A stretch of DNA of 64,000 bases, taken from NCBI RefSeq assembly GCF_026184235.1, contig NZ_CP110806.1, forward strand, positions 3,162,001 to 3,226,000. Direction: 5' to 3'. Made by a program: the position numbers and the translations under genes. This DNA is from Cellulomonas sp. S1-8. GTDB lineage: Bacteria > Actinomycetota > Actinomycetes > Actinomycetales > Cellulomonadaceae. A model generated the notes under the pieces. The model was given only the letters and a program-made list of their open reading frames with translations. It searched no databases and was not told the DNA's origin. Positions within the stretch are counted from its first letter, which is position 1; each line of letters begins with the position of its first letter. Shown here one piece after another: positions 29,825-46,227 of this stretch.

Positions 29825-33694
<3,870 letters not shown>

Positions 33695-39919: not shown

Positions 39920-40656
39920 TCACCCGGACCGGCGCTCGGTGAGCACGGCGACCGCCACCCGCGCCTGCGCGCTCCCGGACGCACGCTCCCGGCGTCGCGG
40001 GCCCGCCGCCGTCGCGACGAGCAGACCGGCCGCCCCCGCCCCCAGGAGCACGTCCCCCGCGCTCAGGACCACACCCGCGCCAGGGACGGGGAACACGTCA
40101 CCGAGGGCGAGCAGGTGCGTGCCCTCGCCCGCGACGACGTGCCCGGACACCGGCGCCACGACCGCCGACTCCGGGAGACCGGCGGCGCGCGCCGCCCCGA
40201 CGTCCAGGGGCATGCCGCCGTTGACGCCGACGACCAGCAGGTTCGCACCCGCCCCGAGTGCCATGGCGGCAAGCGCCGTCCGCGCCGCCCGGTCCGCCCC
40301 ACGCCACGTCGTCGCGACGAGCCCGACCACGCAGCCCGCGAGCAGGGCGGCGACCGCGGTGCCGCCGGCGGGGCGCGCACCACCGCGGACGCCCACGCCG
40401 GGTCCAGGACGTGCAGCAGGTGGACGCCGACAGCCGTCACCACCCAGGGCAGCAGACGCGCGACGCGCGACGCCGCGGCCCGGACGGTGTCGCGCGCGGC
40501 CACGACCTCCCCGGGGGCGGGCGGCACGTCAGCGGGGTCCGGGGACGTCGGCAGGGCGTCGACGGCGACGTCCTCCCGGGTCGCCGCGCGCAGGACGAGG
40601 ACGATCAGCGCGACGAGCGGCAGCACCGCGAGCGCGCCGAGCTGGTCTGCACCCAC
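39920..40656 (-). pseudogene. Second DUF5317-like membrane protein, split by a frameshift
   Basis: Two overlapping frames form one protein. GTG 40656 (GAGGTGG upstream) encodes MGADQLGALAVLPLVALIVL through LLHVLDPAWASAVVRA. The frame ending at 39920 supplies GGTAVAALLAGCVVGLVATT, LVVGVNGGMPLDVGAARAAG and GDVFPVPGAGVVLSAGD. The halves align end to end with the intact paralogue at 37761-38408 (DPAWA, NGGMP, GLGVVLSIGD). The span is one base short of a multiple of three; restoring one base near the G-run at 40371-40374 gives about 245 aa. Either a real pseudogene or an assembly error. Confidence 0.75.
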
Positions 40657-40779: not shown

Positions 40780-43469
40780 TCAGGCGGCACCGTGCGCGCT
40801 GAACGTGCACCAGTTGACGAAGCCCGCGGGCGTGTCCCGGTCGATCTCGCCGCGCGCGCCGTGCAGGGCCCGCGCCATCGTCTCCCCCGCGGCCAGCCGG
40901 CGGTGCAGCGCGAGCATGAGGTCGACCACCTCGACGTCCGGCACCGCCGCGATGGAGGCGACGACGCCGGCGGTGCCGCGCGACAGAATCGCCGACACCA
41001 GCCCGAGCACCTCGTCGCCCTCGTACGCCACGTCCGCGCCGGAGTGGCAGGACGCGAGGACGAGCCGACGGGGCGCCACCCCCGCCCGGTGCAGCTCCTG
41101 CACGGTCACGGGCCCGTCGGCCAGCACCACCGACGAGAACATCGGGTTGTCGGAGCGCAGCGCGCCGTGGCACGCGAGGTGTGCGAGGTCGGCCGCCGCC
41201 ACCGCGGCGACCACCGCGTCGGCACGGCTGTCCTGCGCGCCCAGCACCTGCACGTCGCGGTGCAGCGCGCGCAGCGCCTCGACCTCGTCCTGCGCGCCCC
41301 GCAGGTCGGGTCCCGCGACCAGGACCACGGGCCGGTCGGGGGCGGGCACGCGGGCCCGGGTCCGCAACCAGGCAGCGGCCGACGGCGCGAGCGCGACCGG
41401 GCCGTCGTGCAGCGCGGACCAGGGGGCACCGTGCAGCACACCCACCGGCACGACGACGAGCTCGGCGTCCGGCGACAGCCCGAGCGGCTCGACCAGCGTC
41501 GCCCGCAGGCGTGCGATCCGCAGGTCGGCGCTCGCCCGCGCGGCCTCCGCCGCGGCACGGCTGCTCGGGTCGACCATCCGACGCAGCGCGAAGACGAGCG
41601 CGCGCAGGGTGTCCCCGACGTCGCCGGCGACCTCGCCGAGGTCGACGACGCGGGCGCGCGCGGCGTCGACGACGACGGCGACGAACCGGTCGCCGTGCCG
41701 CCCGTACTCGACCAGGACCCGCCCCCCGAGCGCGGCGCGGACGGTCCCGATGCCGGGCACGCTCGTCACGCGCGACGGCGCGCCCGCGACGTCCTCGAGC
41801 CAGGCGGAACGGCGGGCGTCCGCGAGCTCGTCGTCCGCGACGATCACCGCACGCTGCCGGGCGGCCGCATGCGCGGACTCACGGTCCTCCTGCTCCGCAC
41901 CCGGAGCGACGCCGTCGTGCGGCACCGCACGGGTCGGTCCCTCCGGCTCCGGTGCGACGACGGGCAGCCGTGCCTGCAGGGCCGCCGCGCGCGTCTGCTC
42001 CATCCAGCGCAGCACGGCGGCGGGCGACCCTGCCGGACCACGACCTCGAGCCCCAGCTCCCCCAGCTGCGCCCCGTGACCCGACGCCAGCGCCTGCAGCT
42101 CCATCGTCGGCAGCGCGTCGCGGTGGCGCGCGAGGTCGCGCAGGCCTGCCCGGCACTCACGCAGCACGTCGTCGTCGACGCCGCCGAGGCGTCCCGCCAG
42201 CGCCGCGGCCAGCCGCCCCCGCAGCCGCACGGAGAGCGGTCCGCGACGGGCGAGCGATGCCGCTGCGGTGAGGTGGCGGTCGGCGCGCCGGGGCATCGCG
42301 AGGGCGGCCGCGAGCCTGCCGCCCTCGAGGTGCGCGTCCGCGGCGGATCCGAGCTCACGCGCGCGCTCCAACCGTCCTGCGGCACGACGGACCGCGGCGA
42401 GGTCGGCGGGGCCCGCGTCACCGGCCCTCGCCCGGGCGCGGACGGCGATGAGCACGGCGCGGTCGTGCGCACCCGGGCGGCGCTGCGCACGCGCGCGGAC
42501 GCGGGCCGTCTCCGCCTGTTCCGCCGCTCCGACGGCGTCGCCGAGCATCAGCAGCGTCTCCGCCAACGAGATGCGCGCGTCGACCTCCACCAGCCCGCCA
42601 CCGGCCGCGGCCAGCTCGTCCAGCGCGCGGCGGCCGGCAGCCGCGGCCTCCGGCAGGAGCCGGAGCTCGCGCATCGTCTCCGCGTACTCGACGTAGTACT
42701 CACCGGGAGACTGCCCGGCCTCCTGCGACGCCCGCGCCGCACGCTCCAGGTCACGCAGTCCGTCCGCGAGCCGCCCGGTCTGCACCTCGATGAGGGCCCG
42801 CGTCAGGTAGGGCCACGAGCGCAGCGACGGCCCCAGGCGGGCTGCACCGTCGACCGCGAGCTGGGCCCAGCGCAGCGCCTCCGTGTACTCGGTGCGCGCC
42901 ACGAGCACGAGCGCGAGGTTGTTCGCCGCCCGCACGAGATTCGCGCTGCCGGGCGCCACCTCGCGCACGATCGACCGGTACCGGGCCTCGGCCTCGACGA
43001 GGCGGCCGGCGTTGTGATCCATCACGGCGAGCTGGAGCTGGATCCGAGCGTGCAGGTCGTCGAGCTCGGGGTCGTCGCCGCGGCGCTCGTCGACGATCCG
43101 CAGCGCCGCCGACGCGTCGGTCCGCGCGCGAGCGGTGCGGCCGAGCTCCAGCTGCGCGACCGAGCGGCTGGCGAGCACCCACGCCCCGGGTGTCGCGAGC
43201 CCCGCGCGCCGCGCGAGGGCGAGCGCGTCGTCGAGCATCGCGACGGCACCGGCCGGGTCGCCTTCGTGCCTACTGAGGACGGCCAGCGCCCGCAGGGCCC
43301 AGACCAGTGCCTCCGGGTGGTGGTGGGCCCGCGCCTGCTCGGCGAGGTCGGCCGCACGGAGCCGGGTCCCGGCCGGGTCCGCGTCGATCTCCGACTCGAG
43401 CCGACGGGCCTGCGCGAGCACCTCGGCGCGCGACGTCACCAGGGGCGTCGTGGACTCGGGGGGCTGCAC
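40780..43469 (-). pseudogene. TPR-CHAT caspase-like protein, split by a single-base shift
   Basis: The frame from GTG 43469 encodes about 480 residues of Ala-rich helical TPR-like repeats (for example YRSIVREVAPGSANLVRAAN, AADAHLEGGRLAAALAMPRR). After the shift near the C-run 42028-42030 the second frame gives RWMEQTRAAALQARLPVVAP and a C-terminal CHAT peptidase domain. The catalytic pair is His in DLAHLACHGALRSDN (about 41170) and Cys in LVLASCHSGADVAYEGDEV (about 41050). Adding one base yields one protein of about 896 aa. Cytosolic, no signal peptide. It is divergent from the subtilase/sigma operon and lies next to it, so it is probably functionally linked. Confidence 0.8.
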
Positions 43470-43561
43470 CCTGGGATTTTAGTGCCCCGGACGTATCAAG
43501 CACGGCACCCGGACCCTCTGCACTGGCGAGGACCGTACCGATCCGAGATGAGGAGCACCCC
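43470..43561. promoter_or_regulatory. Divergent promoter region of the CHAT and subtilase genes
   Basis: Only 92 bp separate the two divergent starts. The plus-strand end carries GATGAGGAG, a good ribosome-binding site for GTG 43562. No housekeeping promoter is obvious, so recognition by the ECF sigma factor encoded downstream is possible. Confidence 0.4.
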
Positions 43562-45006
43562 GTGGCCCGATTCCCCGGCAGGCCCGCCGGCCGGCCGTTC
43601 GCCGACGACTACGACGCGCGACTGGTCGGTGGTCGCCCGAGGGCCGCGTCGGCCCCGCCGCGATGGTCGGGTTGAGGGGTCCAGGCTCCGGGTACCTGCG
43701 GGGTCTCGGCCGGTCGCTGTCGCCGGACGACGACGCCGACGAGGCCGTCCAGCGTCGGCGGGAGGCCGTCATCGAGCGCCTCCGGACCGGGTGGACACGC
43801 CGCGAGGCCCCCGAGCTCGAGGTGGTCCAGAACGACTACGGGTCCGACGTCTTCCCGGTCGCGGGCGAGATCCTCGCCGCCACCGCGACCTGGGACGACA
43901 TCCAGACCGAGGAGGGCGGGGCCGGCCTCGAGGTCGTGCCGCTGGGCCACCCCGAGCTCGAGGGCAGGGTCGTCCGGCTGAGGCAGGCGGTGCCCGGGAC
44001 GAACGAGGACGTGCGGGAGCTCGTCAGGTCGTTGCAGGGACGTGGGCACGCCGTCTCGATGTCGTACGTGACCCCCCTGGGCGGACGACCGATCATGAAG
44101 CCGAACTCCGGCGAGTTCGCACCCCAGGTCGCGGACTTCCCCGCCTACCAGGCAGCGGGTCCCCGCTACGGCGAGGGCGTGGTCGTGGCCGTCATCGACA
44201 CGGGCGTCACCCAGGACCCCCGCAGCGACGGATGGCTCGCCGACGTGCCGCGGGTCGCGCACGACGACGCGTCCACCGCGCACGACGACTCGAACATCGA
44301 CCCGCTCGACGCCGAGCCACGGGACGGGTGGCTCGACGTGTACGCCGGCCACGGGACGTTCGTCGCCGGCGTCGTGGCACGCGTTGCACCCGGCGCGGAG
44401 ATCCGCGTGTACAAGGCCGTCGGCCCGGGCGGCGCCGGCTGCGAGCTCGACGTCGCGTCCGCGCTGATCCGGGCCGTGCGCGACGGCGCGCACGTCGTCA
44501 ACCTCTCGCTGGGAACCCAGACGCTCTTCGGCGAGGCCTCCGTCCCGCTCGGCGTCGCGCTCGACGTGGTCCGGGAGATCGAGGACGAGCGAGGAAGCGT
44601 CAGCGTGATCGTCGCGTCCGCGGGCAACTACGGGGACGCGGTGCCGACCTACCCCGCCGCCTTCGGCCGGGTCGTCGCCGTCGGAGGCCTGACGGCCGAG
44701 CTCCGGCCGACGACGTGGTCGAGCCGCGGCCCCTGGGTGGACATCTCGACCGTCGGGGAGGACGTCGTGTCGACGTACGTCGAGGGCCGCCAGAACCCGG
44801 CCTTCGGCAGCGGTGCGGAGTTCGGCGAGAACCCCTTCGCCCGCTGGGTCGGCACGTCCTTCGCCGCACCCCAGGTCGCGGGCGCGATCGCGCGCACGAT
44901 GACCGAGCTCGGGGTGTCGGGCCCCGAGGCCGTCAACGCCCTGCTCGCCGCCGGTAAGCCCGTCGCGGGCTTCGGCAAGGCGTTGCAGATCCTGCCGGGA
45001 GCGTAA
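43562..45006 (+). CDS. Cytosolic subtilisin-like (S8) serine protease; N-terminus probably frameshifted
   Basis: The intact frame 43663-45006 (447 aa) holds a subtilase domain: Asp in VVAVIDTGVT (44197), His in YAGHGTFVAGVV (44350), Asn in IVASAGNYGDAV and Ser in VGTSFAAPQVAG (44857). The ATG at 43663 has no ribosome-binding site. GTG 43562 does (GAGGAG, 8 nt) and encodes VARFPGRPAGRPFADDYDAR, but it is out of register by one base. One added G near 43641-43643 would join both into a protein of 481 aa. No signal peptide or membrane segment is seen, so it is probably an intracellular protease. A 74-nt gap leads to the sigma factor gene. Confidence 0.85.
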
Positions 45007-45080
45007 CCATGTTGGGCACCTGCCTCGTCGAGCGTCATGATGGCCTTCGGGACGAACCCGACAGGCGAAGGAGTCGTGCC

Positions 45081-45722
45081 GTGAGCAGCCGAGAACAGCT
45101 GGGCCTGCCCTACGACGAACGCACCACGTCACAGCTCGTGGCGGGTGCGCTCACGGGCGACGAGGGGTCATGGGCCGAGATCGTGCGCCGCCACACGAAC
45201 CTCGTGATGGCGCGCGTGCGGCAGTTCCGGCTCACGCCGCAGCAGGCCGAGGACGTCGCGCAGACCGTGTGGCTCAACCTGCTGGAGCACCTCGCTGACC
45301 TGCGGGAACCCGCTGCTCTGCCCGGCTGGATCTCGACGGCGACGCGGCACGAGTGCATCCGCATGACCAACCTGTCGCGCCGGTCGATCCCCGTCGACCC
45401 GACGACGGGCCGGCTCGACGGCCAGGACGACGTCGAGCTCGACGGCGAGCTGCTGCGCAGCGAGCGGCACGCCGCGCTGCGCGCCGCGCTCGCCGAGCTG
45501 CCCCCGCACCAGCGCGAGCTGCTGCTCCTGCTGTCCACCGATCCACCGCCCAGCTACCAGGAGGTGTCGACCCGCCTCGGCATCCCCGTCGGGTCGATCG
45601 GCCCGACGCGGCAGCGCGGTCTGGCGCGACTGCGTCAGACGGAGGCGATCCGCACCTATCTCGCGGTGCCGTCAGGCCCCGTGCTCGGCGAAGGAGGCCG
45701 CGATGTGCTGGCACTCGGATGA
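45081..45722 (+). CDS. ECF-type RNA polymerase sigma factor
   Basis: A 213-aa sigma-70 family protein from GTG 45081, with AAGGAG 7 nt upstream; the longer frame from 45009 is rejected. Region 2: WAEIVRRHTNLVMARVRQFR, AEDVAQTVWLNLLEHLADLR and PGWISTATRHECIR. Region 4: LPPHQRELLLLLSTDPPPSY and an HTH whose recognition part reads GIPVGSIGPTRQRGLARLR instead of the common VKSRLxRAR form. No anti-sigma factor with zinc or membrane motifs is adjacent. It overlaps the next gene by 20 nt and presumably controls this locus (inference). Confidence 0.88.
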   Translation: MSSREQLGLPYDERTTSQLVAGALTGDEGSWAEIVRRHTNLVMARVRQFRLTPQQAEDVAQTVWLNLLEHLADLREPAALPGWISTATRHECIRMTNLSRRSIPVDPTTGRLDGQDDVELDGELLRSERHAALRAALAELPPHQRELLLLLSTDPPPSYQEVSTRLGIPVGSIGPTRQRGLARLRQTEAIRTYLAVPSGPVLGEGGRDVLALG

Positions 45723-46227
45723 CGTGAGCCTGCCGCAGCCGCGCCCCGCGGACGCGTGGGAGGACGACGACGTGCTCGCCGGCGACCTCGTCCGCGCGGT
45801 CACGGAGGACGACGCGGTGCGCCGGGTCACCACCGCGGCGACGACCGCGTTCCACGCGCACCGCGGCATGCTCGCGCTGCGTGACGAGCTGGCGACGGAC
45901 CTGCTGCTGCTCTCCCTGGTGCACGACTCGTGCACCGCGGGCGAGCTGACGGGGGTCCGCGACCGCAGCGGTCAGCCGTCGCGGACCCTCGTCTTCGAGG
46001 GCGACGGCATCGGCGTGGAGGTCGAGGTCACCGACGGCGCCGTCGAGGGCCAGCTCATCCCGGCGCGCCCCGGCCGCGTCGTGCTGCGCCGGCCGGACGG
46101 CGACGTCACGGGCGTCGACACCGACGAGGTCGGGTACTTCCGTCTCGACGCCCGCCCCGAGGGTCCCGTACGGCTGGTCTGCGAGAGCGCGGCCGGCACG
46201 TGCGTGACCGCCTGGCTGCCCTGGTGA
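45703..46227 (+). CDS. Small unknown protein coupled to the ECF sigma factor
   Basis: A 174-aa protein from ATG 45703 with AAGGAGG 5 nt upstream, overlapping the sigma gene by 20 nt. No signal peptide, membrane helix or HxxxCxxC anti-sigma motif. The N-terminal half is helical (LVRAVTEDDAVRRVTTAATT); the C-terminal half is beta-rich (TLVFEGDGIGVEVEVTDGAV, GRVVLRRPDGDVTGVDTDEV, GYFRLDARPEGPVRLVC) and resembles a carboxypeptidase-regulatory-like fold. A regulator or cargo of the sigma/protease module is possible. Function unknown. Confidence 0.75.
   Translation: MCWHSDDVSLPQPRPADAWEDDDVLAGDLVRAVTEDDAVRRVTTAATTAFHAHRGMLALRDELATDLLLLSLVHDSCTAGELTGVRDRSGQPSRTLVFEGDGIGVEVEVTDGAVEGQLIPARPGRVVLRRPDGDVTGVDTDEVGYFRLDARPEGPVRLVCESAAGTCVTAWLPW

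Follow-up and report, generated by a model that had tools for sequence, protein, structure and literature searches.

A locus in the soil bacterium Cellulomonas sp. S1-8 raises the question of how an extracytoplasmic function (ECF) sigma factor is controlled when it is encoded beside two proteases and a small protein. The locus lies within positions 3,162,001 to 3,226,000 of contig NZ_CP110806.1, a stretch of 64,000 nucleotides referred to here as the window, and comprises genes for a TPR-CHAT protease, a subtilase of family S8, the ECF sigma factor, and a 174-aa protein (the partner). By published gene context, it is very probably an ECF54-type signaling module of Actinobacteria. The explanation that best covers the observations as a whole, with a probability put at about 0.5, is an ECF54-type module in which the sigma factor would be released from its partner by proteolysis.

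Conservation of the locus was followed from the partner outward. With the 174-aa protein as query, matches were found in 38 of 81 genomes of the genus; with an alignment of its family as query, they were found across the class in at least 37 of 296 genomes and at least 24 of 115 genera (best 11 candidates per genome). The 73 loci compared consist of 35 neighborhoods from the genus, 37 from the class, and the host's intact copy (the second copy of a repeat described below); five weak genus matches stand outside this count (the second matches of G006 and G077, and those of G024, G027, and G044). The sigma gene is present in 72 of the 73 loci, S8 in 65, CHAT in 60, and all four genes in 57. The complete loci show five gene orders, that of the window being the commonest. 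Contig ends truncate 11 of the 16 incomplete loci (L082, L084, L106, L129, L131, L134, L139, and L141-L144), and the other five are L103, for which CHAT lies on another contig of the same genome, L109 (without sigma), L117 (without a protease), and L135 and L140, which belong to a family of split loci (f26). Starting instead from the sigma factor, a search of the class gave at least 118 genomes with a match (best 9 candidates per genome), from which the 40 best matches outside the 73-locus set were taken, down to E 3.1e-48, weaker sigma factors being left aside. The partner adjoins sigma in 32 of these 40 (33 counting a weak match in L237), and CHAT and S8 occur together, in the same loci, in 15, all of which have the partner if L237 is counted. 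A search for co-occurrence of the four genes across actinobacteria had been suggested in a preliminary description of this DNA, and the linkage proved to be strongly conserved rather than absent. The conserved linkage excludes chance association, and gene content supports the view that the four genes form one unit. A separate observation concerns genome G173, in which partner, S8, and CHAT occur without sigma (L109) and a related sigma gene lies without a partner on another contig (L205).

Within this unit, two pairs can be separated. Loci of family f26 carry sigma and partner without proteases in the fetched stretch. Of the 21 genomes with such a sigma match, 15 were examined (all but G170, G280, G289, G297, G324, and G333), and every one of them gave matches to both proteases elsewhere in the genome, with best E values no higher than 1.2e-40 for TPR-CHAT and 2.1e-22 for S8. 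In 14 of these genomes, a single contig carries the best CHAT and, 285-1151 bp from it, a high-scoring S8; in G155, the two are on different contigs. The same CHAT query, which did match in the f26 and genus searches, gave no match at E 1e-10 in 20 class members without a sigma match, an empty answer that alone shows little. By gene content, then, two pairs are shown, sigma with partner and CHAT with, usually, S8, which stand together or apart and co-occur in the sampled genomes. The f26 sigma and partner genes (L216-L236) are situated between a DUF3071 gene region and a phosphodiesterase/DUF5998 region, and their neighbors include a DUF3071 protein, presumably SepH-like, and a type I phosphodiesterase-family protein, both of a housekeeping kind.

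The genomic site of the module is also conserved in the genus. The rplA gene was found in the stretch for 32 of the 35 genus loci, within about 3.4 kb of the partner gene, the exceptions being L104-L106, and this fixed site speaks against a mobile defense island. Eighteen genus genomes without a module at rplA were picked by hand (G006 and G061 carry one elsewhere). In the 17 of these where rplA was found, a diverged CHAT gene lies 3.8-5.3 kb away in 10 and no CHAT match was obtained in seven. A separate set of ten fetched stretches with a second-type or diverged CHAT was also scanned: sigma and partner accompany CHAT in each (10/10), and S8 was found in four of them, although the S8 of L285 belongs to an adjoining first-type set. 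Where sigma had seemed to be missing from the second-type loci scanned, a diverged one was detected by profile. In L277-L280, L282, and L284, rplA and rplJ flank a second-type module of sigma, partner, and CHAT, with no S8 match. One of the ten stretches, L276, comes from the host genome itself, which holds a second, diverged four-gene set at C1:389-395 kb (L276 6359-11961). As further observations on these sets, the two module types lie side by side in G046 (L285), and the genes of L276 are ordered sigma-partner-S8-CHAT on one strand, its S8 carrying an NPFHST repeat run just before the catalytic domain.

The constancy with which the 174-aa protein accompanies the sigma gene supports its designation as the regular partner of this sigma factor. 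Its sequence matches CarboxypepD_reg beneath the gathering score (16.7 vs. 32.3 bits). An AlphaFold2 model built from 21 sequences (mean predicted local distance difference test score, pLDDT, 76) predicts a helical N-terminus (residues 22-77), a linker (residues 74-93, pLDDT below 50), and an eight-stranded beta-sandwich (residues 96-168). Asp75, Arg86, and Arg94 are each invariant (73/73), and Arg86 falls within the linker, which may be a candidate segment for cleavage or for contact with sigma. A Foldseek search with the model gave no match at E 0.001 or better, the top one being the Ig-like DUF3244 protein 3d33 (E 0.011). A profile of the family, run against PDB chains, matched biofilm-associated surface proteins alone (7dm0, E 3.8e-4; 6m3a, E 0.03), over residues 90-153 in the sandwich part.

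The sigma factor itself is a recognizable member of its class: Sigma70_r2 (E 1.4e-9) and Sigma70_r4_2 both score over their gathering thresholds, and the sigma70-ECF superfamily model reaches 59 bits against a cut-off of 42.9. An in-frame GTG at 45081, preceded by AAGGAG, is an alternative start. Its region 4 recognition segment, SIGPTR, had been regarded as atypical and turns out to be the rule for the group, GPTR being present in 50 of 72 aligned sigma factors, close variants of it in most of the others, and the segment also in a second sigma factor of the host genome. That the module lacks a zinc-type or membrane anti-sigma factor was borne out by Pfam, NCBIfam, and hydropathy; neither the module translations nor the adjoining DUF5317 protein matched an anti-sigma family in Pfam or NCBIfam, the scan not extending to farther genes, and a zinc-type anti-sigma factor was considered and dropped. 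Right after the S8 stop codon, the junction of the S8 and sigma genes (positions 45009-45043 of the window and the corresponding site of 17 relatives) is strongly conserved, with TGCTGGG in 16 of 18, ATGATG in 18 of 18, and CATGATGG in 11 of 18 loci. The sigma frame is open through this junction, with lengths differing by whole codons (15 aligned rows starting there), so the junction may be coding, and it is not claimed as an ECF promoter. Its conservation may reflect the sigma coding start, a translation signal, or an RNA or DNA element.

Both proteases appear to be catalytically equipped. In the window frames, the CHAT domain is matched by Pfam at E 1.1e-30. Its catalytic His768 and Cys808 (intact-copy numbering) are invariant in the 60 loci where CHAT was found. 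The His-Cys pair therefore stands as first described, but the window gene is not whole, consisting of two overlapping frames. Likewise, the CHAT part of the TPR-CHAT assignment holds, but TPR_12 remains just under its cut-off of 30.1 bits (29.8 in the window, 27.4 in the intact protein). The highest hydropathy of the four proteins (a 19-residue Kyte-Doolittle mean of 1.76) lies inside the CHAT domain. Of 20 loci compared (the window and 19 named ones), 17 have a TANNNT hexamer 4-9 nt ahead of an in-frame start codon for CHAT, the misses being L157, L159, and L164; the number expected from Markov-resampled sequences is 0.68. From this position just before the start codons, a promoter of the housekeeping type and a leaderless mRNA are predicted, and CHAT would accordingly be produced constantly, as a sensor should be.

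The subtilase is matched by Peptidase_S8 at E 1.8e-31 (window frame), and its Asp, His, Asn, and Ser residues are invariant in the 65 loci where S8 was found. It had been described as signal-less, and a Kyte-Doolittle scan agrees: nothing resembling a signal peptide was seen, the highest 19-residue mean being 1.14 overall and 0.55 over the first 40 starts. A model of the 447-aa frame has a mean pLDDT of 57, with block means of 79-89 for residues 61-130, and only its N-terminal domain was used. Residues 65-137 are predicted to follow the order E-H-E-E-H-E (strands and helices), presumably that of subtilisin I9 prodomains, and the N-terminus thus looks like a prodomain region in the model. Foldseek returned 159 matches with E values of at most 0.001; for the 50 listed, query TM-scores are 0.33-0.43 with root-mean-square deviations of about 8-12, and some are pro-forms aligned across at least 400 columns. 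These matches agree with a subtilase and say only that. An identity as a type VII secretion mycosin was rejected, since TIGR03921 gave 88.8 bits against a cut-off of 278.75 and no hydrophobic signal or anchor segment was found; the likeness between the two is the S8 fold that they have in common.

This combination of genes has precedents. In the passages on ECF54 of a published review, carboxypeptidase, subtilase, and CHAT proteins are placed beside an ECF factor without an anti-sigma factor, and proteolytic control is proposed; the group is credited there to Casas-Pastor et al. (2021) and Huang et al. (2015), and the mechanism is regarded as mainly actinobacterial (PMC8999054). The present module shares with this group an ECF sigma factor, subtilase (65/73), CHAT (60/73), and the lack of a recognizable anti-sigma factor. 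Its assignment is made by gene context. By context, as given in these passages, the module is already published as ECF54, and the host locus is one more member. What the review calls a carboxypeptidase probably corresponds to the family of the 174-aa partner, which matches CarboxypepD_reg weakly. Four points go beyond the description in those passages: the separability of the pairs, the linker arginine that never varies, the predicted leaderless promoter of CHAT, and the site between rplA and rplJ. Literature searches covering open-licence PMC papers gave no experimental study of the module, and among the papers that they listed PMC8999054 alone deals with ECF54.

The closest functional parallel is Craspase, in which, according to the part of the account consulted, the TPR-CHAT protein Csx29 cleaves Csx30, an inhibitor of the ECF factor CASP-sigma (PMC10028731). 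Here too, a TPR-CHAT protein with catalytic His and Cys, an ECF sigma factor, and a small regulatory protein are encoded together, and by analogy the working logic would be the same. In contrast to Craspase, the CHAT protein is not placed in the Csx29 family (18.3 and 17.1 bits, the cut-off being 300), the window has no CRISPR-like repeats (no 20-mer present three times), Csx30 is not among the PDB chains matched by the partner sequence, and an S8 protease is added. A looser analogy is offered by proteolysis of the RseA/DegS/RseP type, in that the sigma factor could be freed by a protease cascade, but no membrane segment is evident in the module's sigma factor, partner, or S8, and the partner matches no anti-sigma family in Pfam or NCBIfam.

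From these data, a tentative order of events can be proposed, which is judged somewhat less probable than even. The helical N-terminus of the partner would keep sigma inactive. On sensing a cue in the cytoplasm, the TPR repeats would activate CHAT, which could cut the partner within the flexible but conserved linker, with Arg86 as the best candidate site, and/or mature the pro-subtilase, which would then destroy the partner. The freed sigma factor would take RNA polymerase to its regulon, probably including its own operon. The linkage, the invariant catalytic residues, the linker arginine, the prodomain-like order of S8, the CHAT promoter, and the Csx29 precedent make such a release plausible. 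In its widest form, which is doubtful at present, the module would be a CRISPR-free, chromosomal, vertically kept actinobacterial counterpart of Craspase signaling, in which sigma is switched on once a TPR-CHAT sensor protease, frequently along with a pro-subtilase, has cleaved the bound linker-and-sandwich partner at its invariant arginine, the two pairs being exchangeable, acting in cis or in trans, and present as paralogous sets in one cell.

Other explanations have to be weighed against proteolytic release. The proteases might act by repression, with sigma under constant degradation and the partner serving as the adaptor that delivers it to them, so that a signal halting proteolysis would let sigma accumulate. 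Control of this kind is what has been proposed for ECF54, with ClpXP-AntA as the one proven case (PMC8999054, section 3.3), and it would fit both the predicted always-on promoter of CHAT and the commonest gene order (44 of 57 complete loci), where S8 immediately precedes sigma and is read from the same strand. Still, it is the proteases that can be encoded at a distance, whereas the partner gene keeps its place beside sigma; this is easier to reconcile with a regulator pair on which the proteases act than with sigma as their direct substrate. The prodomain-like N-terminus suggests that S8 itself may need activation; neither point is decisive, and repression is considered unlikely without being negligible. 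An anti-phage or suicide module, in which CHAT would sense infection, S8 would kill, and sigma would merely boost expression of the module, is suggested by the TPR-CHAT protease that works beside the CRISPR effector in Craspase (PMC10028731, in the part consulted) and by the PADLOC subtilase model, which matches S8 (E 6.4e-14 in the window, 8.1e-14 in the intact copy). Against this, the genus flanks show a module adjoining rplA in 32 of 35 loci and not moving about as an island would, the window has no 20-mer in three places, and PADLOC matched S8 alone, with the subtilase and a partial IetS model, giving no match for CHAT, sigma, or partner and no multi-gene defense system. The defense role that had been put forward finds no support in these searches and is improbable, and a defense island was dropped. 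As for four neighbors without shared function, the fixed site in Cellulomonas could keep the genes together by descent, but five gene orders retain the same four families, the split form retains all parts in 15 of 15 genomes examined, and the host has all four families again in a diverged second set, which leaves mere adjacency very improbable.

Several points nevertheless weigh against release of sigma from its partner. The published ECF54 proposal, in the passages on this group, has the opposite sign, with proteolysis keeping sigma inactive (PMC8999054). Binding, cleavage, and transcription are extrapolated from sequence and predicted structure. The linkage has gaps: seven loci of the 73 have S8 without CHAT and two have CHAT without S8 (eight of these nine at contig ends), L109 lacks sigma, and 7 of the 40 sigma-first loci show no partner, L226 at a contig end among them. 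The S8 protease is not obligatory, its match being absent from 6 of the 10 second-type or diverged stretches. CHAT relatives occur in 59 of 81 genus genomes vs. 40 of 81 for sigma matches at 1e-20, an excess arising because a search at 1e-20 mostly misses the diverged second-type sigma. The 20 control genomes comprise 17 of one order and three others, and phylogeny was uncontrolled in this comparison. The predicted template modeling score (pTM) of the partner model is only 0.48, and Arg86 and Arg94 may instead have a structural role or contact sigma. Against PDB chains, the partner profile matched neither Csx30 nor an anti-sigma factor, and TPR-CHAT found one match, a designed protein judged spurious. 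Lastly, no sigma-dependent promoter could be defined in the S8-sigma junction (18 loci) or in the divergent region between CHAT and S8 (15 loci), so autoregulation by sigma is a guess.

The four genes lie where the preliminary description had placed them (Table 1); its 92 bp between the CHAT and S8 starts and its overlap of the 174-aa gene with the sigma gene were confirmed. In the host genome, a single contig of 4.5 Mb, the module is flanked by rplA/rplK on one side and rplJ/rplL on the other, CHAT being separated from rplJ by a DUF5317 gene; the module's nearest identified neighbors are ribosomal-protein genes and this DUF5317 gene. The DUF5317 protein has 244 aa (window 39920-40656); its window copy is broken, and an intact one is present as L006:4949-5683.

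Table 1. Positions of the module's genes and elements within the window
Feature	Position	Strand	Remarks
TPR-CHAT protease gene	40780..43469	minus	GTG start at 43469; two frames in window; Pfam CHAT
Subtilase (S8) gene	43562..45006	plus	GTG start at 43562; Pfam Peptidase_S8
ECF sigma factor gene	45009..45722	plus	237 aa from ATG at 45009; Pfam sigma-70 regions
174-aa sigma-partner gene	45703..46227	plus	Found with sigma in 72/73 loci; AlphaFold2 model
Predicted -10 element TAAAAT	43476..43481	minus	6 nt upstream of CHAT start codon
Partner linker, codons 74-93	45922..45981	plus	pLDDT below 50; invariant Asp75 and Arg86; candidate segment

The broken frames of the window are best considered together with a direct tandem repeat of about 89 kb, the copies of which adjoin, that begins at window position 32609 (genome C1:3194609-3372662) and takes in ribosomal-protein genes. 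The copies are 99.89% identical, differing by 3 mismatches and 65 indel events, of which 48 are single-base and 50 fall within homopolymer runs of at least three. In the window, TPR-CHAT is read as overlapping frames 43469-41844 and 42156-40780, the copies differing in length by one base near 42.03 kb; in the subtilase gene, a one-base difference near 43.65 kb puts the opening codons out of frame with the remainder. In the second copy, TPR-CHAT (896 aa) and the subtilase (481 aa) are each one open frame. Because the near-identical second copy has these frames whole, an assembly error is likely, and copies that differ almost only by short indels, one with intact frames, fit an assembly from noisy reads. 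The repeat is therefore probably an assembly artefact that also breaks the window frames; a true recent duplication overlaid by sequencing errors keeps some lesser probability. Breaks in the window frames were seen near 40.4, 42.0, and 43.7 kb, all within the repeat.

If release of sigma from its partner by proteolysis is correct, it would supply a mechanism for a sigma factor group that has been described from gene neighborhoods. Switching on transcription through a CHAT (caspase-like) protease would then be a signaling route of bacteria in general, not confined to a single CRISPR subtype. Three features leave the module open to direct bench tests: pairs that can be separated, an arginine that is invariant in the linker, and a CHAT promoter predicted to be always on.

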